In this document: in pieces, positions 1-54,295 of the stretch
Position numbering within the stretch: the stretch's first letter is position 1
How the letters are laid out: each line of letters begins with the position of its first letter
DNA from: Periplaneta americana
Lineage: Eukaryota; Arthropoda; Insecta; Blattodea; Blattidae
Direction: 5' to 3'
Assembly (NCBI RefSeq): GCF_040183065.1
Contig: NC_091120.1
Coordinates: 78,320,208 to 78,384,207, forward strand
DNA: 64,000 bases
The notes under the pieces: model-generated
The model's database searches: none
What the model was told of the DNA's origin: nothing
Seen by the model: only the letters and a program-made list of their open reading frames with translations
Translations under genes and position numbers: made by a program

Positions 1-598
1 GACGTCGAGATTGATAACTGTCGAAGTGTCGAACGTCAAGGATCCTTGAATCAACACAGTTGTTTATACCCGACTGAACTTTTATCTACTTTGGCAACTG
101 TTATATAGGTATAAAGAATATTTGAAATATCGTCTCTACCTTTCAGTGTATAATAATCCGTTCCCCAATCTTTATTTAATTACTAGGCTCTTATTAAAAT
201 GCTAGGAATTTTTTTTCATATGTTTGAGATCAAGTGTGCAATTTCAAGTAAAGGATTTTAATATTATGTTTTATGTTTCTTAGCAATGCAAATTTATTTG
301 AGAATTGTTTTTTTTTTTATTTATATAACCATAGATAATATCATATATTAGAACCAGAACATTTTGATAATTAAGATACTGTTCAGTTTTGCCTTTTTGT
401 CGCATTTAAAGATTTATAATTTTATTTATTTCAATGATGTATGTTATTCAAAGTTACGAAATATTTCCATGCCGACTAAATGCTATTTCGAGAATGATGA
501 GTGAGACTCGAAGCGCACGAGAAAGACGAGATGAGACTCGAAAGACAAAGACAACGAACACAGCGAGCGAGAGCGGCAGTTAGTTTTGTTCATCTCTA
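1..598. other. AT-rich sequence, no gene seen
   Basis: No open frame or recognisable element. Positions about 485-580 form a GA/GC-rich island in otherwise AT-rich DNA, with repeated 'gagactcgaa' motifs; its nature is unknown. Confidence 0.4.
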
Positions 599-1097: not shown

Positions 1098-1348
1098 AAT
1101 GATGATTCCCTACATCTAGGCTACAAGATAAGCAATTGATTTCGTGTTATGTGTCAATTGGCGAACTGCTTCCCACAACGAAGACCCGGCAATAGTTCCT
1201 CACAAAAGCAAATTCAATTATACAATAAATGGGAGGTTAAAGGCTGCTTTCGGTAACTTAAGACACTAAATTCTTAGAGGTTATGACATATATCTTAGAA
1301 TTCTGTATGCTCTATTTGTGTTGGATTTTGAACAAACGTATATGTATA

Positions 1349-1514: not shown

Positions 1515-2581
1515 TTACAGAAGATGTTCAAAATGTCCACCTCCTGTTTGACTACACACCTCACATCGATGTCTCATTGACCTGCGAACACGATCCCAAA
1601 CTCCAGGAGTATTGCGTATATCCTCAGAACATGCCACAATTCGATTCCGAAGGGATTCCAAATCAGGCACCGGAGACGAATAAACCAATGATTTTAAATA
1701 GCCCCACAAGTAGAAATCGAGAGGGTTCAGATCAGGTGAGCGTGGAGGCCAAGCAATTGGGCCACCTCTACCTATCCATCGATCAGGAAACCTTCGATCC
1801 AAGTACCGGCGAGCCGTACGACTGAAGTGTGCAGGAGCGCCATCATGCAAGAAGTGAATGTGTTGACGATTGATCAGTGGAGTGTCTTCTAAAACATGAG
1901 GTATGGTGTTTTCCAGGAAGTTTGTGTACGCCTGCCCCGTAAGTCTGTTTACAAGTACATGGGGTCCAACTAATCGATCACCAATGATACCGGCCCACAT
2001 GTTGAGGGAGAACCGCACCTGGTGATGAGATGGAACAGTTGCACGTGGGTTTTCATACGTCCATACATGCTGATTGTGGAAATTTGTTACGCCGTCTCGT
2101 GTGAACTGTGCTTCATCTGTAAATAATACTAAGGCAGGAAAGTTCGGATTTACACCACACTGCTGCAAGAACCACTGATAGAACCTAACTCGTGCAGGGT
2201 AATCTGCTGGTGACAGGGCCTGTACATGTTGCAAATGATAAGGATACAATTGATACTCTTTCAAAAGTCTCCAGACAGTCGTATGAGAAACATTGACTTG
2301 CAACGCTACCCTTCGTGTGCTGATAGAAGGAGTCATGTTCACAGCCTCCAGAATCTCCTCCTGTACTTCTGGAGTTGTAGATGTTGGTCGTCCCCTTACC
2401 AAACCAGGAGAGTTAAATTTTCCATACTCGGACAGACGGTAATGGAGACGTACAAATGTCTTCCGGTCTGGACATTGTCGCTTTGGTACCTCTCCTGGTA
2501 CAAACGACGAGCCAGCACAGCATTGCCGTCCGCCTTACCGTACATGAAGTGTATCTCTGCCAGCTCTTGATTTGAATACAT
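1515..2581 (-). pseudogene. Mariner-like DDD transposase, one frameshift
   Basis: The transposase binds the inverted repeats and cuts and joins element DNA in the nucleus. Reading on the minus strand, translation would start at 2581 (MYSNQELAEIH...) with a helix-turn-helix region, then change frame near 2484-2488, where one base appears to be missing after an ...ERY codon series. The remaining 295 codons from about 2402 to 1515 are open. Visible motifs are the second helix-turn-helix (VSHTTVWRLLKEYQ), the first catalytic Asp in FTDEAQF, the second in HDGAPAHF, and the third in PPRSPDLNPLDFYLWGY. I count 36 residues between the second and third Asp, longer than the 34 of classical mariner. All three acidic residues are present. 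The single frameshift means this copy probably makes no full transposase. Confidence 0.88.
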
Positions 2582-2675
2582 GTCGCACAGTCTAACGCCT
2601 ACACAACACTGAATGTAACCTTCGCCTCGGAATGAACTGTCAGAGTGTCCTCTTAATGTCTCCTTTGACGGCAAC

Positions 2676-2835
2676 GACCTGCGGAAAGAAAAACGTTCCG
2701 GTGAATTTCAATGTTGTGAAAGCCATAACTCGGAAATAAAGCATTTCCGGACACATGTTGTAATGAACTATTTTGATTGTCTACATGTGGGAAATACATA
2801 CCTGAAATTATGCCAAGTATTTTTGAGACACTCTG
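2676..2835 (-). repeat. Right terminal inverted repeat of mariner-like element
   Basis: This is the partner of 1349-1507. The outer end reads CAGAGTGTCTCAAAAATAC on the minus strand, against CAGGGTGTTTAAAAATAC at the other end. Confidence 0.88.
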
Positions 2836-2837
2836 TA

Positions 2838-3338
2838 TACATTGCAACAAAAATAACTGGGATAAACTTTGGCCGCGAGTTCTCCATACAAACTCAAGAA
2901 AAAATGTCATATCCTCATACCACAGTCTATAGTCGCGACGATGTTATTCCCGGCGTGACTCTTACTCTTTGCTTACGTCTTAAGAAGTGAAGGCTCTATG
3001 AAGTCTAGGTAGGTAGTATCGTTCGCCATTTTTGTTCTTTCGTTGCACAGATACCATAAGAAGGAATCAATTTGCCACACCTTTAAACATTATCATATCT
3101 TAGCTCCTATGATAATAAATCAAACGCACTGTAATTCAGGAAATAATTGAGCGGAAAATAACGTCTTCGTGTGCTTTCTGCGAACGCCAACAAAAGAGCC
3201 AAAATGGCGGGCGATTATATTAAGTATTTATCGAACCTTAGGAACTTCATAACGTCTTCATCAACGAATCGCAAGACGCGCACGTTTAAATGTAGCCGAC
3301 CTGCAACGTAATTGGCTGCCGGAAATTAGAGCGACGGG
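2838..3338. repeat. Unassigned sequence including a dispersed repeat
   Basis: No gene. Positions about 3084-3135 (taaacattatcat..tagctcctatgat..) recur with changes at 34238-34305, so part of this stretch is a dispersed repeat. The full element was not delimited. Confidence 0.45.
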
Positions 3339-3451
3339 ACTATAGTATATACAGTCACGAAGCTCAATACGTAGGGAATATGCATCCATAGATAGTTGCT
3401 AACCACTAGGATCGCTACTATCGCCTAATCACAGACAATTCGAAATAATAG

Positions 3452-3983
3452 TATCGCCACGGAATCACGCTTAATGTTCGGCATGTTTTTGAGCGGCCTC
3501 GTGCAAACATTCGGAAGGTCTTTGAAATTTAATTGTATTATAGTTTTCAATTTCTTATGTCGCCGCTCTAATCACTCAATCAATGTTGCAACCAATAAGC
3601 TGCTTCCATTACAAAATGACATCTACTTGTCTAATCCACGTGAACTAAAACCAAGGTTGCAATGTCTTGTGCTGAGGAAAAACATTAAGATATGTGATTA
3701 AAAATTATCATTAAAGAGTTATTATTAAGAGTTACGAATGCCAACGTACTCATATATGAAACAATAATAATAACAATAATAGTAATAATAATAATAATAA
3801 TAATAATAGCCACTTAACAATATAACAAACTATTGCTTATTCTTATCGAAGGAGTAGAGGTGACAACGTGACGCTTAGAGTGAAACCTACAGAACAACAA
3901 TCAGTCTTCAAAATTAAGTTTTAAAAGCACACCGAACATTATTGTATAATACCGGCATGTTAAGTATGAGGCCGCGGCGATAA
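3452..3983. mobile_element. Insert inside MITE copy 1
   Basis: The segment is absent from the other two MITE copies. Its edges look like short inverted repeats, TATCGCCACGG at 3452 and CCGCGGCGATA at 3973-3983, next to 'aataata' on the left and 'ataata' on the right. It contains a stretch of AAT/AAC repeats (about 3763-3811) and no convincing protein. Probably a small non-autonomous DNA element of unknown family. Confidence 0.55.
3763..3811. repeat. (AAT)n microsatellite
   Basis: Trinucleotide run with one AAC and one AGT interruption. Confidence 0.85.
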
Positions 3984-4084
3984 TACCGGCACAGTCTTTT
4001 GTTCCTAGTACCCTCAAAAACTCAAGCTTCGTGACTGTATATACTAGACTGTGGACATACTATGTCAGGTACCAAATATTAATC

Positions 4085-4178
4085 ATTCATCCATTCATTC
4101 ATAATGTTCTGCCCAAGGGTACATCTTTCACTGCAAACCCAGCATTCTCCAATCTTTCCTATTTTCCGCCTTCCTCTG
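4085..4178 (-). mobile_element. LINE-B 3' end, first part
   Basis: On the minus strand this is the terminal part of a non-LTR retrotransposon whose better copies lie at 13893 and 44095. The (CATT)n run at the left is its 3' tail. The element resumes at 5466 after an insertion. Confidence 0.65.
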
Positions 4179-4179
4179 A

Positions 4180-5465
4180 CAAGCAAATATTCTCATAGGG
4201 GCAGATAAAAAAATAATTTCTTCTTTTCACCATGTTAATAACGTCAAAACAAGTGCTTATACCAGTTTTGGCCACTCGAGCGCAATTACGAGGACCCTCC
4301 AGAAAGTAAGTTTCCCGGGGACCGTTTAGAGAAAGAAAACACAATTTCTTGGAGCGTTTTATTGGAACAGATACTGAAATTATTTAGCTAGTTTTCAACG
4401 TATTTCCCACCAGAATTGAGACATTGCCATACTATGGAATCAACAGAGTGATGCAGACGGCTGCCACACAATAGTTCCGATCCCAGTCGGCAGACTTCTA
4501 CGACACAGGGATAAAAAAGTAGATCCCACGGTATGATAAATATTTCATTTCCGGTGAAGAATATGACGAAAAAAAGTTCAACAGTATTTGTATCTGTTAC
4601 AATAAATCTTTCCATGAAATTAAGTTTTCTCTCTGTAAACGGCCCCAGAAAACTTACTTCCTGCGGGTCCTCGTAATTGAGCTCGAGTGGCCAAAATTTG
4701 TATAAGCACTTGTTTTAACATTATTAACATAGTGAAAGAAAAAAATAATTTTTGTGCGAGATCGTTGCTTATTTGCTTGGTCTCCGCACAAAACCGGTCC
4801 GCGGAAAGTCCAAAATTCCACATTCAGTATTCCCAACCTAACACACATAACGATTTCCCTCTTCTTACCGCTTAAGTGACATATTGATTTCACTGCTTTA
4901 GGCTTTTAACATATTATTTTTAGAGACGTTCAATATAGTAATAATTATAAATTGGAAACTTACCACTGCAATTTCACCTAAATTGCACTGTTAATTATTG
5001 TTTTTAAATATTTGCAGAAATTAAGTAAACTCCACAACTCCACTAAAGTTACTGCATTCGTGAAAAAATCAACAAGATTCCAGACTCATCATAGACTGGG
5101 GGGAAAAAGACAGACGTATATCACGGCCTGCTGGAGTATAGTAAACACAGAAAACATTTTAAAGCAACAATGTTGAAGATAGATATTTTTGTTTTGAAAA
5201 TTTGCCGTCATTGAACAGAAACCAAGATGGAGGTTTCATTGTAACTAATTAGAAATTCCTCTTTCAGGTATGTAATAAACGATCTTCGCACAAAATTATG
5301 TACGATACACGAGAGGTATGTTTTCTTTCAATTCTCGGAAATTAAAAATGCTAAACTACGTTTCGCGTTTTCAAACTTTTCCTTGAACATGAAAACTTCA
5401 ACATACCGCTCTTGTAACGCATATTACTATTTTATCTGCCCCCATGAGAATGTTTGCTTGTTATC
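4180..5465. mobile_element. TIR element inserted in LINE-B, with a nested inverted repeat
   Basis: The outer ends are inverted copies: 4180-4215 (acaagcaaatattctcatag, then gggcagataaa) against 5422-5465. The LINE-B sequence on either side is otherwise colinear with the 13893 copy. Inside, 4206-4315 and 4645-4760 are a second inverted pair (~110 bp, around 'gtcctcgtaattg.gctcgag'). Minus-strand 4388-4450 ends in WQCLNSGGKYVEN-stop, which resembles the C terminus of mariner transposases. No intact transposase is present, and the exact target duplication was not resolved. Confidence 0.6.
4388..4450 (-). pseudogene. Possible C-terminal scrap of a mariner transposase
   Basis: About 20 codons ending WQCLNSGGKYVEN before a stop resemble the end of mariner-family transposases, which typically finish with a W-x-K-C-I/L-x-x-x-G-x-Y-V-E pattern. 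No catalytic residues remain. The match is short, so this is tentative. Confidence 0.4.
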
Positions 5466-5765
5466 TATCATATGATAGGCCTATTTTCTTCTGCCCCGAA
5501 CTTTTCTTTCGTTCACCATTGCTTCCAATGTACTACGCAGTTTCTTCTTAGCTAGTGACCCAGACAATTTATTTTTCTCTTCCCGAGCAGTTTCAGCATT
5601 ATTCTTTCTTCACCCACTCTTTCTAGCACAGCTTCATTTCTTATGCTGTCTCTCTATTTCACACTCTCCATTCTTCTCCATAGCCATATTTCAAATGGTT
5701 CTAGTGATTTCTCTTCACTTCGTCGCAGTGTCCATGTATGTTCTATTGTAAATATTTCATAACCC
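5466..5765 (-). mobile_element. LINE-B fragment, second part
   Basis: This matches 14020-14200 and 44215-44460 and continues the copy begun at 4085. On the minus strand it encodes degenerate C-terminal reverse-transcriptase-element sequence (R-x-x-E-E-K-R..EAFEMW-like), broken by stops. Confidence 0.65.
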
Positions 5766-6320
5766 TTTGGTCTGATTACCTGGTTGGGTTTTTACTGAGG
5801 TTTTCCCCAACCATAAGGCAAATGCCGGGTAATCTTTTGGCGAATTCTCGGGCCTCACATCATCTCACTATGTCTCGCCAAATTATTGTAAAAAAATTGT
5901 AGAAAATTGTAGAAAATTACAAAATTGTAAAACTGTAAAGTTGTAAAATATTGTAAAAATTATAAAAATTTGTAAATGTTATGTTTTATTTAACGACGCT
6001 CGCAACTGCAGAGGTTATATCAGCGTCGCCGGATGTGCCGGAATTTTGTCCCGCAGGAGTTCTTTTACATGCCAGTAAATCTACCGACATGAGCCTGTCA
6101 CATTTAAGCACACTTAAATGCCATCGACCTGGCCCGGGATCGAACCCACAACCTTGGGCATAGAAGGCCAGCGCTATACCAACTTGCCAACTAGGTCGAC
6201 TAAAAATTTGTAAAAATTGTAATTGTAATATTGTAAAATTTTGACTTATTCCACATCTTAAAGCTTCATTGCTCATGTAAGACGTATGGAATATAATAAA
6301 TGAAATGAAATGAAAAATAT
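5766..6320 (+). mobile_element. SINE-C copy interrupted by SINE-A
   Basis: It starts with 'gattacctggttgggttttt', contains a long (TTGTAAAA)n stretch at 5883-5980, and ends after the interruption with 'tatggaatataataaatgaa'. The copy at 12680-12915 has the same order without the interruption. The tRNA-like head is not visible. Confidence 0.7.
5977..6201 (-). mobile_element. SINE-A (tRNA-derived), with 13-bp target duplication
   Basis: The minus strand begins with a tRNA-like head (gtcgacctagttggcaagttggtatagcgctggcc...B box ggttcgatccc) and ends in 'gcgagcgtcgttaaataaaa'. Perfect 13-bp direct repeats AAAAATTTGTAAA flank it at 5964-5976 and 6202-6214. The anticodon-loop region would read TCT (Arg), but the stem is imperfect. 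This is a pol III-type retroposon, not a working tRNA. Confidence 0.88.
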
Positions 6321-18762: not shown

Positions 18763-18775
18763 CAGTGTCATTCTT
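18763..18775 (+). repeat. Left 13-bp direct repeat of tRNA-repeat array
   Basis: CAGTGTCATTCTT is identical to 20294-20306 on the far side of the array, as a target duplication would be. Confidence 0.88.
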
Positions 18776-18841
18776 GCAAATCAAGATTTTCAGGTATAAC
18801 TCCCTGTAAAGTTGATTTGAATAATTTCGAGGGAAAAATTG

Positions 18842-18913
18842 TTCCGGAGCCGGGTATCGAACCCGGGACCTTTGGTTTAACGTACCAACGCTCTACCACT
18901 GAGCTACTCGGGA
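18842..18913 (-). repeat. tRNA-like sequence, unit 1
   Basis: Cloverleaf-compatible 72 nt: 7-bp acceptor stem with one C-C mismatch, A box tagctcagtgg, anticodon stem TTGGT/ACCAA with loop ACGTTAA (GTT at positions 34-36, but C instead of T at 33), B box ggttcgatacc. The missing U33 and the repeat context argue against a working tRNA-Asn. Confidence 0.8.
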
Positions 18914-19127
18914 ACTCTAACCGACACCGATCCAATTTTTCCCTCTATATCCACAGACCTCAAAGTGGGCTGACAACCGTCAAGCAACCAACTTCGAGTG
19001 CACACTAACTCCGTGTGACTTAAATTGTGGTTTTCTGTTAACGAACAGTAACGTGTATTATGCAAATCAAGATTTTCAGGTATAACTCCCTGTAAAGTTG
19101 ATTTGAATAATTTCGAGGGAAAAATTG

Positions 19128-19199
19128 TTCCGGAGCCGGGTATCGAACCCGGGACCTTTGGTTTAACGTACCAACGCTCTACCACTGAACTACTCGGGA
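19128..19199 (-). repeat. tRNA-like sequence, unit 2
   Basis: Same as unit 1 except A box 'tagttcagtgg' (one change). Confidence 0.8.
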
Positions 19200-19413
19200 A
19201 CTCTAACCGACACCGATCCAATTTTTCCCTCTATATCCACAGACCTCAAAGTGGGCTGACAACCGTCAAGCAACCAACTTCGAGTGCACACTAACTCCGT
19301 GTGACTTAAATTGTGGTTTTCTGTTAACGAACAGTAACGTGTATTATGCAAATCAGGATTTTCAGGTATAACTCCCTGTAAAGTTGATTTGAATAATTTC
19401 GAGGGAAAAATTG

Positions 19414-19485
19414 TTCCGGAGCCGGGTATCGAACCCGGGACCTTTGGTTTAACGTACCAACGCTCTACCACTGAGCTACTCGGGA
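19414..19485 (-). repeat. tRNA-like sequence, unit 3
   Basis: Identical to unit 1 within the 72 nt. The bases just upstream read 'ggttaaag' rather than 'ggttagag'. Confidence 0.8.
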
Positions 19486-19699
19486 ACTTTAACCGACACC
19501 GATCCAATTTTTCCCTCTATATCCACAGACCTCAAAGTGGGCTGACAACCGTCAAGCAACCAACTTCGAGTGCACACTAACTCCATGTGACTTAAATTGT
19601 GGTTTTCTGTTAACGAACAGTAACGTGTATTATGCAAATCAGGATTTTCAGGTATAACTCCCTGTAAAGTTGATTTGAATAATTTCGAGGGAAAAATTG

Positions 19700-19771
19700 T
19701 TCCGGAGCCGGGTATCGAACCCGGGACCTTTGGTTTAACGTACCAACGCTCTACCACTGAGCTACTCGGGA
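19700..19771 (-). repeat. tRNA-like sequence, unit 4
   Basis: Identical to unit 1 within the 72 nt; last unit before the inversion. Confidence 0.8.
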
Positions 19772-19938
19772 ACTCTAACCGACACCGATCCAATTTTTCC
19801 CTCTATATCCACAGACCTCAAAGTGGGCTGACAACCGTCAAGCAACCAACTTCGAGTGCACACTAACTCCGTGTGACTTAAATTGTGGTTTTCTGTTAAC
19901 GAACAGTAACGTGTATTATGCAAATGAAGATTTTCAGG

Positions 19939-19985
19939 TTGGTACGTTAAACCAAAGGTCCCGGGTTCGATACCCGGCTCCGGAA
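19939..19985 (+). repeat. Partial inverted tRNA-like sequence
   Basis: Starts inside the anticodon stem (TTGGTACG) and runs to the 3' end. It marks the inversion breakpoint and lacks the A box. Confidence 0.85.
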
Positions 19986-20199
19986 CAATTTTTCCCTCGA
20001 AATTATTCAAATCAACTCTACAGGGAGTTATACCTGAAAATCTTGATTTGCATAATACACGTTACTGTTCGTTAACAGAAAACCACAATTTAAGTCACAC
20101 GGAGTTAGTGTGCACTCGAAGTTGGTTGCTTGACGGTTGTCAGCCCACTTTGAGGTCTGTGGATATAGAGGGAAAAATTGGATCGGTGTCGGTTAGAGT

Positions 20200-20271
20200 T
20201 CCCGAGTAGCTCAGTGATAGAGCGTTGGTACGTTAAACCAAAGGTCCCGGGTTCGATACCCGGCTCCGGAA
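20200..20271 (+). repeat. Inverted full tRNA-like sequence
   Basis: Complete plus-strand copy with A box 'tagctcagtga' and the same anticodon loop. It is followed only by the first part of the body before the terminal direct repeat. Confidence 0.85.
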
Positions 20272-39946: not shown

Positions 39947-40189
39947 TTCAAACTATGGAATAATAAGGGGGTCAAGTGGTTTGGTCGGTGGGCACGCAAG
40001 TAATCCCATATAGTGGGGTGTACAATAGACCTCAGGTCCCTCTCTCCCTCCTAACAAGGAAAACAACTTCATTCAGTAACTCTAAATTATACACTCAATT
40101 CTATGGTTGAACATTCCATTTAGAAATGATAGAACATACGTTTCAAAATGGAACATCACGGGTCCCAGCTACTTAATATTGTTTTCTAT

Positions 40190-40206
40190 TTCATATCATA
40201 TTCAGA
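40190..40206 (+). promoter_or_regulatory. Likely splice acceptor in the 5' UTR of the GMC gene
   Basis: A pyrimidine-tinged 'ttcatatcatattcag' precedes the ATG at 40212 by a few bases. The preferred start lies just after it, so the 35 in-frame codons from 40107 would be intron. The upstream exon was not located. Confidence 0.45.
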
Positions 40207-40211
40207 TAATT

Positions 40212-42095
40212 ATGGAAGCATACTGCTTCATGAATTCATCTGCAACTCCCGGAGGAAGCAGTGTCAGCGGTCTTCTGTTTGTCGGTCTCATCTCAACACT
40301 TATCAACACTCAACAGCAACTGGGAAATCCTGAAGACTATCCAAAAGACGCCAGAAGCCAACTGCTACCTGAATACGACTTCGTTGTCGTAGGTGGAGGT
40401 TCAGCCGGTTCCGTGGTGGCCAGCCGACTCAGCGAGATGAACAAATGGAAAATCCTGCTTTTAGAGGCTGGAGGAGACCCTACACCCTCCTCAGATGTTC
40501 CAGGTCTTTGGTTTTACTTACAGAACACAGAAATCGACTGGCAGTATCGTACTGAACCTCAACAAGGCATGTGTCAGGGATTTCGAGATAAGCGTTGTAA
40601 TTGGCCACGAGGTAAAGTTTTGGGAGGAAGTAGTGTTATCAACTACATGGTGTATGTTAGGGGAATGAAGGGCGATTATGATAAGTGGGCACAAGATGGA
40701 AATTATGGTTGGGGCTTCGACGAAATTTTGCCTTTCTTTAAGAAATCAGAAGACATGACTTATGAACCACTACTTCAAAGTCGTGGTAACATTTCATATC
40801 ACGCGAAAGGAGGACCCTTAACAGTAGAGAGACCACATTTCAGTCATTATAAAGAATCGTTTCAAAGGGCAGTTATCGAAATGGGATACGAATGGTTGGA
40901 TGACATTAATGAGGACCGTCAGTTAGGTTTCGCAGAAGTTTTCGGCACTCTGAGGGATGGCGCAAGATGCAACACAGCCAAGGCCTTTCTCAGTCCTGTG
41001 AAAGATAATGATAATCTTCATGTTGTTAAACATGTTCATGTTACTAGGTTACTTATTAACGAAACAACGAAAACCGCTTACGGGGTCGAATTTCAACACA
41101 ACAATGGCCATATTTATACTGTTAAATCAAGGAGAGAAATAATTTTATCTGCCGGGGCAATAAATTCCCCTCAGATATTAATGCTGTCAGGAATAGGACC
41201 AAAGGATCACTTAGAAGAAAAGGGGATCAATCCTATTGTTCAAAACTTGTGTGTAGGTAAAAATTTACAAGACCATCTTATATTTCTTGGATTGGTTTTC
41301 AACATTAAAGATTCACGAATCAGTCAATCACCTAATAAACTGGATACATATTACGATTTTTTGACAAAAAGATCCGGTATTTTGACGAACATCGCAGATA
41401 TAACTGGATTTATAAAAACTAACATTTCTACATCTGATGACAGACCAGACTTACAATTTTACTTTTTGGTACTAAATGCTAATGATACAGAATCGACAAG
41501 TTTTTTATCACATGCATTTGGATTTGATAACAACACAACTACTTCTATGCACGCGTTGATTCAACAAGCCGATCTTCTTATTGCTGCTCCTGCAATTATG
41601 CGACCGGAGAGTAGAGGTAGAATCCTTCTCAAGTCATCAGATCCTTTTCAGCACCCCAGAATATATCCGGGATATTTATCGGATCATAATAATAAAGATA
41701 TTGACTCACTTCTACAAGGCATAGATTTTTACCTGAAATTCATAGAAACTAATGAGATGAAGTCGAAACAAGGAACTCAAAGAAAATTATATATAAAGAA
41801 CTGTGACGCCCTGGAGATAAACACGAGAGCCTATTGGGAATGTGCCCTTAGGCATTTGGCAACTACTCTTTATCACCCTTCTGGAACATGTAAGATGGGT
41901 CCAGAATCTGATCCCACAGCCGTTGTGAGCCCAGAACTGAAGGTGTATGGCGTGAAAGGACTGAGGGTTGCTGATGCTTCTATAATGCCAACTATAGTTA
42001 GCGGTAACCTTAACGCTCCAACAATAATGATAGGCGAAAAAGCTGCCGATATGGTAAGAAAAGAGTGGGAATCGAAAAAAGACACATTTGACTGA
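40212..42095 (+). CDS. GMC-family FAD oxidoreductase (glucose dehydrogenase-like)
   Basis: Predicted 627-residue flavoenzyme of the glucose-methanol-choline family, which oxidises an alcohol or sugar with FAD; substrate unknown. The frame is open from 40107, but I prefer the ATG at 40212: it gives the usual insect length, puts a hydrophobic stretch ([13 protein letters not shown], residues 19-31) near the N terminus as a signal peptide or anchor, and lies just after a splice-acceptor-like 'ttcag'. Visible features: FAD-binding [13 protein letters not shown] (55-67) and LLLEAGG; GMC signature 1 [18 protein letters not shown] (134-151); signature 2 [15 protein letters not shown] (313-327); catalytic His555 in [28 protein letters not shown] (596-614), with Asn where some GMC enzymes have a second His. 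Several N-x-S/T sites suggest secretion. There are no introns, frameshifts or stops. Insect GMC genes often sit in clusters, but no second one is seen here. The gene appears functional. Confidence 0.95.
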
Positions 42096-50909: not shown

Positions 50910-51322
50910 TTCTTATTTATTTATTTATTTATTTATTTATTCATTTATTTATTTTCTCATTCCATTCTAACTATTTCATTTATTCTTTACATTCTAATTT
51001 TTTTTAGTCAAAAAAAGATATAAACCCTAATTGCTTTTGTAACTTTGCGTTCATAAGTTTTCTTATAGCTATTTCTTTATTTATTTGTAGAAACTTTTCT
51101 TTTATAAATTTCGTCCGTATATCTTTTGTATTTTGACATTCAAGGACAATGTAAATGTCATCTTCTCTCCGTCCACATAATGGGCACGTGCCTTGAGGTA
51201 TATTACCTCTATTACTTCTTAATTTCAAAATTCCTAGTCTGAACCAGGCCAGTCCAAATCTTTCTTTCAATATCATATTATAACTCTTGGTACTTTTCTC
51301 GAATTTTGTGAATTCCTCTCAG
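50910..51322 (-). mobile_element. LINE-D 3' end with zinc-knuckle C terminus
   Basis: The minus strand is open for 90 codons (51276-51004) with FGLAWFRLGILKLRSNRGN, then CPLCGRREDDIYIVLECQNT, a C-x2-C...C cysteine motif like the one at the C terminus of some insect LINE ORF2 proteins. It ends in an (AATA)n tail (50912-50955). The reverse transcriptase is absent; the 5' side meets another LINE fragment. Confidence 0.75.
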
Positions 51323-51334
51323 AATCATCACTTT

Positions 51335-51840
51335 GTTTTCTGTGAACGTGTCTTTAAAATATACCACCTCCCTCAAATCCATTTTAATATTATCCTCCCA
51401 TCTACGTCTCGGCCTCCCCAAAGATATTTTTCTCTCTTGCCTCTCAACTAACACACTATATTCATTTATGGATTCGCCCATACGTGCTATATGCTCTGCC
51501 CATCTCAAACGTCTGGATTTAATGTTCCTAATTATGTCAGGTGAAGAATACAATGCGTGCAGTTCTGCGTTGTGTAACTTTCTCCATTCTCCTGTAACTT
51601 CATCCCTCTTAGCCCCAAATATTTTCCTAAGAACCTTATTCTCAGACAATCTTAATCTCTGTTCCTCTGTCAAAGTGAGAGTCTAAAGCGTCTCAACCGA
51701 ATAATAACAGGCATTTTCCATATTTATTCTCCTCCCTAATGTCATTTACATTTGTTACTGTTGCTCGAAGGTATTTTAATTTTTCCACCACATCGAAGGA
51801 TTAATTTCCAATTTTTATCCCGTTTCTGTGGTCGTGCCAG
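51335..51840 (-). pseudogene. LINE-A C-terminal fragment with internal deletion
   Basis: Minus-strand sequence encodes VVEKLKYLRATVTNVNDIRE, then, after a deletion near 51690, ENKVLRKIFGAKRDEVTGEW and RRLRWAEHIARMGES, then PRRRWEDNIKMDLREV. The same order occurs at 62640-63170. The usual end (DWINLAQDRD...) is missing, and the open frame instead continues into unrelated codons after LREV at about 51355. Several frame changes mean it is dead. Confidence 0.82.
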
Positions 51841-52561: not shown

Positions 52562-52738
52562 AGTTCGAATCCCACTTGGGCTGAATACCTGGCTAGGTTT
52601 TCTTCCGAAATTTTCTCTAGCTGTTAGGCGAATGTGAGATCATCCCTTGGCAAATCCTCTAACTTGTCTCTAAATATTATCCTTATACAACCAATTCCAT
52701 CCTGAGTCGATACAGTCTTGTTAAATAATTTAAAAGGC
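52562..52738 (+). mobile_element. Diverged SINE (SINE-B/C type)
   Basis: B-box-like 'gttcgaatcccacttgggct', then 'gaatacctggctaggttttc' and the 3' word 'gatacagtcttgttaaataa', shared with SINE-B. Heavily diverged; no clear target duplication. Confidence 0.65.
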
Positions 52739-52855
52739 ATGTTGGTCCTACAAGTTAACATGTAAATGAAAATAAGTATCATAAATCCTTCAATAACTGT
52801 CTATTTTTAACCTAATGAGTAGTACAAGGATTACATTAGGTTATACACATAAAAA

Positions 52856-52909
52856 TATACGACTAGCGCTTTCGCCAATTGGATGGCATCTTCAGGTCTA
52901 ATTAGCATA
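52856..52909 (-). ncRNA. Hammerhead-ribozyme-like motif, left arm
   Basis: Minus strand order: stem I TATGC..GAC, core CTGAAGA, one extra T, stem II GCCA-TCCAAT-TGGC, GAAA, minimal stem III formed by AGC/GCT, then the NUH-type site CTA before GTC-GTATA, which closes stem I (GTC with GAC, GTATA with TATGC). Stem II is perfect. The extra T after CTGAAGA departs from the standard core, and activity is untested. The three-pair, loopless stem III is like the minimal hammerheads reported in Penelope-like elements, which can act as dimers. Confidence 0.6.
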
Positions 52910-53200
52910 CTATGATGCTTTCAACATAAAGACATAGATGAAATGCAACAAAATAAAAAGTGATAAAATACATGATGTAAAAAATTACAATATTATAAAT
53001 AACTGCAGAAACAGAAGGCAAAGCGATAATAATGACTTGAAAACAGGCGTGGTGGTTGTTGTAATTCAACCTCTATGAAGTCTAGATATTAAAATACAGA
53101 GTCTATGCCTTAATTTTTCTCAATTTTTCTCACATCATGTATTTTATCACTTTTTATTGTGTTGCATTTCATCTATGTCTTTATGTTAAAAGCATCATAG

Positions 53201-53254
53201 TATGCTAATTAGACCTGAAGACGCCATCCAATTGGTGAAAGCGCTAGTCATATA
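53201..53254 (+). ncRNA. Hammerhead-ribozyme-like motif, right arm
   Basis: Same layout as the left copy on the plus strand: CTGAAGA, extra C, GCCA-TCCAAT-TGGT, GAAA, GCGCTA, GTC. Stem II has one G-T pair, and the base after GTC is A instead of G, weakening the outer part of stem I. Confidence 0.55.
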
Positions 53255-53349
53255 TTTTTATGTGTATAAGCTAATGTAATTCTTGTACTACTCATTAGGT
53301 TAAAAATAGACAGTTATTGAAGGATTTATGATACTTATTTTCATTTGTT

Positions 53350-54295
53350 AAATAATGTTTAAAAGCAATCGAAAGCTACCTATCGTTTAATTTGTGCAGT
53401 TTCCAATTTCTGCACCTTGTACGTGTGCACAGTTGTGGGTCAGTGAGAATTTGAATAAATGTCTCTACCCTTCGCTGTTAAGATTAGAGACCCCACAATC
53501 CAGTTGATCGATGACCGAACGCTGGGCTCTACTTATTACAGTCCAATTTAGGGATTTTGGCCCCTGCAAAAAGTAAGTAGATAGACTAAGAGCGAGTTAC
53601 TCATCACTACTGGCGGGCTGGGTCGCACAAGTCAGGCCGCAAAGTCATATCACCTAACACTTCCTTATTATCATGTCTCGGTACACTTCATCTTAAAATA
53701 CAATATTCTTACACACGTCCCGTTACTAACCACTACGTCTGCTGACTAAACGATATAATAATAATGAGAATCAAGCAAAATATGCATGGAGCTAGAATCA
53801 CTCGCTGCAAAATCGTGTCAAAGAGACTGATCTTTGTGTGCACCACATAGCATGATATCTGTCACAACTCTTCACAAATGCAGTCTTCTGCCGGCAGGTG
53901 GAAGGTCTTTGTCCTACATAGTTTGTGATAGAATCCGTGGACCGCGAAGCGAGTCATCGTGTGTCTCAGCTCGTAGCCCGCGGCCATCCATTCTCTTGTA
54001 GTCATCGCGTCAACAGACAGAATGTCAACACAAGCCGCGAAATACCTGCATGACGACATTGTAGACGCCCTCAGACATCCAAAAGGCAAGCTCATCATCA
54101 TGATGACTTGTATTTTCTTGACATGTGTGTCCCTCAGCTACGAGCATAGATATTATTTTCATTCTTCCTCTTCCCTCTTCCCCTCCTATGCACATTTGTG
54201 ATTAAATTTCTTTTCTATGACGCAACACACAGCTCGCTCACTAGACAAACAACCAAGGACAAAGACCAATAACGCTGAATCGAGCTGTATAGACC
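53350..54295. other. No gene seen; unassigned GC-richer frame at 53862-54101
   Basis: The minus strand is open for 79 codons at 53862-54101 in GC-richer sequence (AGYELRHTMTRFAVHGFYHK). I do not recognise it. It could be an exon or part of a repeat, but nothing supports either. Confidence 0.3.

Follow-up and report, generated by a model that had tools for sequence, protein, structure and literature searches.

A 615-bp foldback in the genome of the cockroach Periplaneta americana, whose two inverted arms each carry a sequence reminiscent of a hammerhead ribozyme, raises the question of how such a paired structure is generated and whether its motifs act as ribozymes. Judged from sequence features, with a probability of about 0.8, it would be a 5'-truncated, head-to-head double copy of a Penelope-like element (PLE) of the GIY-YIG type, produced by two reverse transcription starts and ending on both sides in hammerhead-bearing 3' pLTR arms. 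The window, i.e. the whole stretch of DNA analysed, is 64 kb long, and coordinates given without a locus name refer to it.

The inserted element, as delimited by its target-site duplication (TSD) and its arm ends, occupies positions 52730..53344 and is flanked by an exact 12-bp direct repeat, TTGTTAAATAAT (52718..52729 and 53345..53356). It is wider than the feature of the original prediction (52764..53346), which took in neither this repeat nor a 34-nt tail present at the left end only (52730..52763, minus strand), so that the left end is 34 nt longer than the right end. The arms, given there as 215 bp, measure 221 nt each (52764-52984 and 53126-53346), with 96% complementarity and a separation of 141 nt. 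The left arm (52764..52984, minus strand) would correspond to the 3' pLTR part of a left, tailed cDNA, and the spacer (52985..53121, minus strand), whose exact break point we infer, to the upstream continuation of the same cDNA. The right arm (53126..53344, plus strand; the repeat arm itself runs to 53346) would be a short untailed cDNA. A 10-nt tandem duplication, AATTTTTCTC, at the junction between spacer and right arm (53112-53131) may be read as an end-joining scar. The element has no long open reading frame (ORF), none of at least 130 aa being present in the ORF list. What is directly visible is a single insertion within one 12-bp TSD, with outward arms truncated to unequal lengths.

A hammerhead-like motif in each arm

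The left motif (52861..52898, minus strand) has the intact family form and reads, from 52898 to 52861, GAC, CTGAAGA, T, GCCA, TCCAAT, TGGC, GAA, AGCGCT, A and GTC. As a type I hammerhead it would comprise stem I GAC/GTC, stem II GCCA/TGGC and a loopless stem III formed by the palindrome AGC/GCT, with A as residue 17 and a predicted cleavage between 52864 and 52863 (minus strand). In the right motif (53212..53249, plus strand; predicted cleavage between 53246 and 53247) the unpaired T is replaced by C and TGGC by TGGT, giving a G-U closing pair in stem II. The two motifs point outward, one per arm, and both arms thus contain the hammerhead-like core (CTGAAGA, stem II, GAAA and loopless stem III) that had originally been described. 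The single unpaired T between CTGAAGA and stem II (C in the right arm), noted at that time as an extra base, is also found in the families of L072 and L091, which were fetched by protein and not by motif. The core corresponds to CUGANGA plus GAAA with a non-G cleavage residue, and three helices surround it, stem I being open. Position 7 is the tolerant one of the hammerhead core; most of the motifs collected here have A at this position, and one family has G.

A covariance model built from nine motifs, none of them from the family of the window, matched the left motif with 51.6 bits (E 1.4e-11) and the right motif with 44.6 bits (E 1.1e-9), the next-best match in the 64 kb scoring 13.8 bits. 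The covariance search that had been suggested as a check recovered both arms when this held-out model was used instead of Rfam. With Rfam itself the check was negative: no hammerhead was reported at the gathering thresholds in the window or in seven sister loci, and nothing named hammerhead appeared at E values up to 10 (stretches of 701 nt and 68 nt), in scans run without a known Penelope hammerhead as positive control. The Rfam models would seem ill-suited to a hammerhead that has an extra base and a stem III without a loop. Single-sequence folding found the motif no more stable than shuffled sequences (z -0.89 and -1.36 for the two arms), and energy folding of the bare 38-mer gave another structure. 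Since folding energy does not single out the motif, the case for it rests on covariation and not on energy.

In a set of 15 distinct motifs taken across families, 98.0% of 150 cells were paired compared with 85.0% after shuffling, 19 cells were changed on both sides compared with 5.0, and the covariation score was 0.450 compared with 0.199 (0/500 shuffles in each case). Compensatory changes occur in all three helices, with GAC/GTC, GAT/ATC, CAT/ATG and TGT/ATA as stem I variants, GCCA/TGGC, GGCA/TGCC, GCTA/TAGC and GGTAC/GTACC in stem II, and AGC/GCT and AAC/GTT in stem III. Sliding the partner strand by 1-3 columns abolished the signal. Two measures were weaker (pairs with a both-side change, 28/500; further pair types, 146/500), and an earlier set of 15 motifs scored 0.276 compared with 0.152. 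A predicted hammerhead-like fold is supported in both arms.

The motif is widespread in the 3.23-Gb genome. The pattern CTGAAGANGCCAN{3,12}TGGYGAAA gave 762 + 788 exact matches (reversed control 0 + 0), the window-family form (GACCTGAAGANGCC...GGYGAAAGCGCTAGTC) 66 + 67 (control 0), and a pattern leaving stem II free beside ACGTTTGT 661 forward and 678 reverse matches (control 0 and 0), the extra base being fixed in the first two of these patterns. Among the 100 places listed from the scan with free stem II there were 43 distinct stem II strings, in which the first four pairs were standard in 89.5% of cases, compared with 75.2% after shuffling (0/2000). A similar motif pattern had 23 matches in prokaryotic genomes and none in the viral contigs searched.

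Relationship to Penelope-like elements

Affiliation of the window element with the GIY-YIG clade of PLEs is supported by the predicted coding sequences of its relatives. As the original prediction of a Penelope-like origin would imply, the motif of sister copies is preceded, on its own strand, by GIY-YIG coding sequence, and related frames combine reverse transcriptase (RT) with GIY-YIG. At five of six window-family loci, chosen by eye for nearness from match lists, the motif lies 708-2218 nt downstream of the GIY-YIG piece. A GIY-YIG domain was found in L014 and L018, and homologous coding pieces occur in the window-family copies L044, L037 and L001, with stops in L044 and L037; the stop-free part of the L044 piece matches PF01541 (1e-5). 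A protein database search with the L014 piece retrieved 25 proteins, with precomputed RVT_1 in 14 and GIY-YIG in three.

As to fuller copies, relatives 82-85% identical to the L044-type piece contain open frames as long as 839 aa. In the autonomous relative L092, an 815-aa frame with a GIY-YIG match starts at an ATG and is still open where the fetched sequence stops; this ATG lies in sequence matching the tail, 140 nt after the start of CTGAAGA. Pfam reported no RVT_1 in L092 itself. Its frame shares 49% identity over 501 aa with P0003, a protein annotated in Periplaneta americana (genome match 100% over 513 aa) in which Pfam finds RVT_1 plus a GIY-YIG domain just at the cut-off. An ORF with RT and GIY-YIG is therefore present in the family and absent from the window copy, and the partly inverted pLTRs, the optional 3' tail and the short TSD are those of a Penelope element. 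The near-full-length foldback L072 (C6:87136800-87144900), has 2,894-bp arms that are 99.8% identical as well as long open frames of 866 and 679 aa, and on both these grounds it is probably a young insertion.

The window contains several other features. A 134-aa frame (51278-51682, minus strand), without any Pfam match, closely resembles by eye a frame inside the Penelope foldback L010; it may be a fragment of another retroelement. Positions 18775-20271 include a 286-bp unit in about four tandem copies (18775-19939) with four tRNA-like matches, and a fifth such match in the other orientation at 20200-20271. The unit looks like a dispersed tRNA-derived SINE, and a stretch much like it can be seen by eye inside the Penelope arm of L027. 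A 339-aa open frame (1515-2534, minus strand), whose weak matches to DDE and HTH transposase domains fall short of the curated cut-offs, is perhaps a Tc1/mariner-like remnant, and a GMC oxidoreductase gene (PF00732, PF05199) occupies 40086-42095 on the plus strand as a single open frame.

Possible ribozyme activity of the motif

All available PLEs are described as holding hammerhead motifs, usually minimal ones (PMC6155905), and the role of Penelope hammerheads has been called a mystery in a review (PMC7761336). In these two reviews, minimal PLE hammerheads are, like the cockroach motif, of type I, with little or no helix III and a location in pLTRs; the cockroach core CUGAAGA (or CUGAGGA), followed by one unpaired U before stem II, differs from the descriptions they give. 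In the cockroach, the hammerhead would cut tandem Penelope transcripts. Because the 3-bp palindromic stem III is loopless, it would probably do so as a dimer or with the help of the element's protein.

A rival reading, to which we would give appreciably less weight although it deserves to be taken seriously, is that the stem pattern has been kept as a protein-bound or templating structure which no longer cleaves itself in the cockroach, or never did. Both window cDNAs run through the cut site, which implies that their templates were uncut there. Most long copies behave likewise: 8 of 10 in the P0003 family and 7 of 8 in the 839-aa family reach upstream of the cut predicted for the upstream motif. 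Of the others, L072 and L074 end 23 nt and 90 nt before this cut is reached, and L086 has only an opposite-strand arm at the upstream motif position. As the starts of the long copies scatter and 15/18 reach upstream of the cut, the idea that hammerhead cleavage sets their 5' ends is ruled out. The extra unpaired T and the loopless stem III would also suit a purely structural role. Moreover, the hammerhead of the anole element PAc is reported to cut only in the presence of protein and to be dispensable for insertion in vitro, where cleavage mutants still insert (Frangieh et al. 2024, PMC11167929). In L028, an apparently older outward pair (256-293, minus strand, and 1252-1289, plus strand), around which the L028 element seems to be nested, retains its stems (CAT/ATG and GGCAC/GTGCC) with a changed core, TTGAAAA.

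Conservation of the core argues against this structural reading. Although the scans fixed CTGANGA and GAA, leaving only position 7 free within the core, so that core conservation is partly built in, an intact core was also found without motif selection in protein-fetched loci (L072, L082-L087, L089-L092), and the full motif is present in 6/9 upstream stretches of the protein-fetched L072 (P0003) family and in 8/8 of the 839-aa family. In addition, among the motifs listed, the predicted cut is preceded by A, U or C, and in no case by G. The window copy itself would be a poor place for cleavage, as its foldback RNA is predicted to fold at -361.5 kcal/mol, compared with -115.5 kcal/mol for 20 shuffles, with the motif paired within the long hairpin. 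The original suggestion that RNA from either strand would contain a sense copy does not therefore imply an ability to act, the core being predicted to be buried.

Element ends and the origin of the inverted arms

When the 3' flanks of the arms were aligned, the arms proved to end at either of two sites about 34-36 nt apart, the longer form having the tail. A first set of 43 loci (the window and 42 chosen by motif) included 35 double-ended elements, and eight single-armed ones (L001, L030, L031, L033, L034, L037, L039 and L040) that stand outside the end count. Exactly one end is tailed in 35/35 of the double-ended elements, or 36/36 with L072, which has one tailed end, one untailed end and an 11-bp TSD. 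In 34/35 the opposite end is close to the untailed site, 23-48 nt short of the tail end by alignment, the extremes (L029, L036 and L022) being read as chance extension or insertion in the arm; in L019 the second end falls at neither canonical site, 82 nt short of the tail end. The tail of L026 is about 960 bp away from its arm, an interval read as a later insert, and L025 has a second, duplicated tailed piece. A second set comprised 10 further motif pairs, fetched without knowledge of their ends. Here, 9/9 evaluable elements have one tailed and one untailed end (L095-L099 read by alignment; L094, L100, L101 and L102 with L103 by eye), and in L093, the remaining pair, one arm has lost its 3' part. 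In total, exactly one end is tailed in all 45 evaluable elements among the 46 double-ended ones examined, and the other stops at the untailed site in 44/45. If the start were chosen at random with equal odds at each end, 45 unlike pairs would have a probability of 2^-45. Single-armed copies also occur: L031 continues past the tail into sequence resembling the L092 ORF start, so that the tail site there is not an end, and L001 is a single-arm insertion, from which it follows that two starts are not obligatory.

It is proposed that both arms of the window element derive from the 3' end (pLTR) of the Penelope transcript, each with its minimal type I hammerhead motif. The element's endonuclease would make a staggered double cut, the reverse transcriptase would prime on both 3' ends, once per RNA start site, and the two cDNAs would be joined mid-element by end joining. 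We lean, by a modest degree, towards a stronger proposal for the foldbacks as a whole, namely coupled two-site integration, in which each foldback would draw on both start sites, each of them a single time and on a different DNA strand, probably via the halves of an RT dimer or via two RNAs paired by the palindromic stem III. On this view, dual-strand target-primed reverse transcription, and not self-priming, would normally give rise to inverted pLTRs.

Arkhipova et al. (2013, PMC3846280) put forward snap-back or self-priming, in which one cDNA or antisense RNA folds back and is copied into the second arm, for the Penelope elements of rotifers. Those of Adineta vaga are described there with inverted pLTRs, a tail on one of them and a self-priming model on an antisense template. 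Such a process accounts for head-to-head inverted repeats, and the nearest arm is the element's own partner for 34/50 arms compared among the copies examined, a figure compatible with mutual copying or with a single source RNA. We nonetheless consider it unlikely for the cockroach elements. A copied arm should end as its template does, yet the 45 evaluable elements all have unlike ends. A spacer test at the innermost inverted block resolved 28 of the 34 elements tested: the spacer extends the untailed arm in 13 (L026, L027 and L035, which are interrupted copies, being the least secure) and the tailed arm in 15, the window among them. For L014 and L018, the spacer assignment is consistent with the strand on which the coding piece lies. 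Because the spacer may extend either arm, simple snap-back copying fails; in the 13 elements whose longer arm is untailed and shorter arm tailed, the tail could not have been copied from the longer arm. An untailed arm cannot have served as the DNA template of a shorter arm that has the tail, which favours two RNA-templated starts. Spacers range from 23 to 1,660 nt (2,857 nt in L035, possibly with an insert), and seemingly perfect palindromes still have spacers of 23-89 nt. In L014, about 4.5 kb (1567-6077) interrupt one Penelope arm at a point where the partner arm is continuous, apparently a nested insertion of later date.

An inverted pair could in principle also arise from two separate insertions close to each other or from subsequent rearrangement, and nested or interrupted copies do exist at the sister loci L014, L026, L028 and L040. 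Such an origin is very improbable given that, in the window as in most sister copies, the pair as a whole lies within a single TSD: when sought within 30 nt of the ends, a direct repeat of at least 8 bp was found in 31/35 elements, compared with 4.9% of 1,190 mismatched end pairs. The TSD is off the expected place in L004, L011 and L041, and the direct repeat is only 6 bp in L046 and L020; in the second set it is 12 bp in L095-L098 and L100, 10 bp and off-position in L099, and 7 bp in L094. The uniform orientation of the pairs also speaks against separate insertions, since adjacent motif pairs within 10 kb are outward in 24/24 cases among the 100 places listed; among the 150 GIY-YIG matches listed, 15 pairs are outward, one is ++, one is -- and none is inward. 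A DNA foldback transposon or MITE with terminal inverted repeats that resemble hammerheads by accident, a reading prompted by the outward inverted repeats and the short copies without a long ORF, is still more improbable and already refuted for the family by unlike ends, spacers of such variable length, stem covariation, Penelope coding sequence in sister copies and a single-arm insertion.

Among known systems, one of the closest is PAc (Poseidon) of Anolis carolinensis, for which two RT start sites, and cleavage and extension of both strands in vitro, have been reported (PMC11167929). As in the cockroach, PAc has a hammerhead near the pLTR-ORF junction and two adjacent start sites that define the tail. 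The ORF of L092 begins within the tail sequence, about 140 nt downstream of where the motif begins, whereas that of PAc is said to begin at stem II, and the cockroach copies made in vivo use one start site at each end. As reported by Frangieh et al. (PMC11167929), the start sites show no strand difference in vitro, so that their assay does not predict a one-of-each rule. Compared with the GIY-YIG PLEs of Adineta vaga as described, the cockroach foldbacks differ in that the tail is on exactly one end in 45/45 evaluable elements and that a large share of the copies consists of short foldbacks lacking any long ORF. Metazoan retrozymes are likewise small retroelements with type I hammerheads; they are described as direct tandem repeats of about 150-300 bp with canonical hammerheads, whereas the cockroach element is an inverted pair with minimal motifs (PMC7229834, PMC7761336). 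A retrozyme identity was rejected in view of the outward orientation of all 24 adjacent pairs listed and the loopless stem III.

Hammerheads, tails and inverted pLTRs are already known in Penelope elements; as far as we have seen, the end count and the spacer test are new. No statement of a strict one-tail rule was found in the parts of the literature searched, and published work may contain one. In the 2013 rotifer study, working out the replication cycle was left for the future (PMC3846280). The rule of one tailed and one untailed end, together with spacers that extend either arm, provides a testable model for inverted pLTRs and the optional tail. Moreover, the cockroach genome supplies many natural hammerhead variants with freely varying stems, with which it can be tested whether the ribozyme is kept for cleavage.
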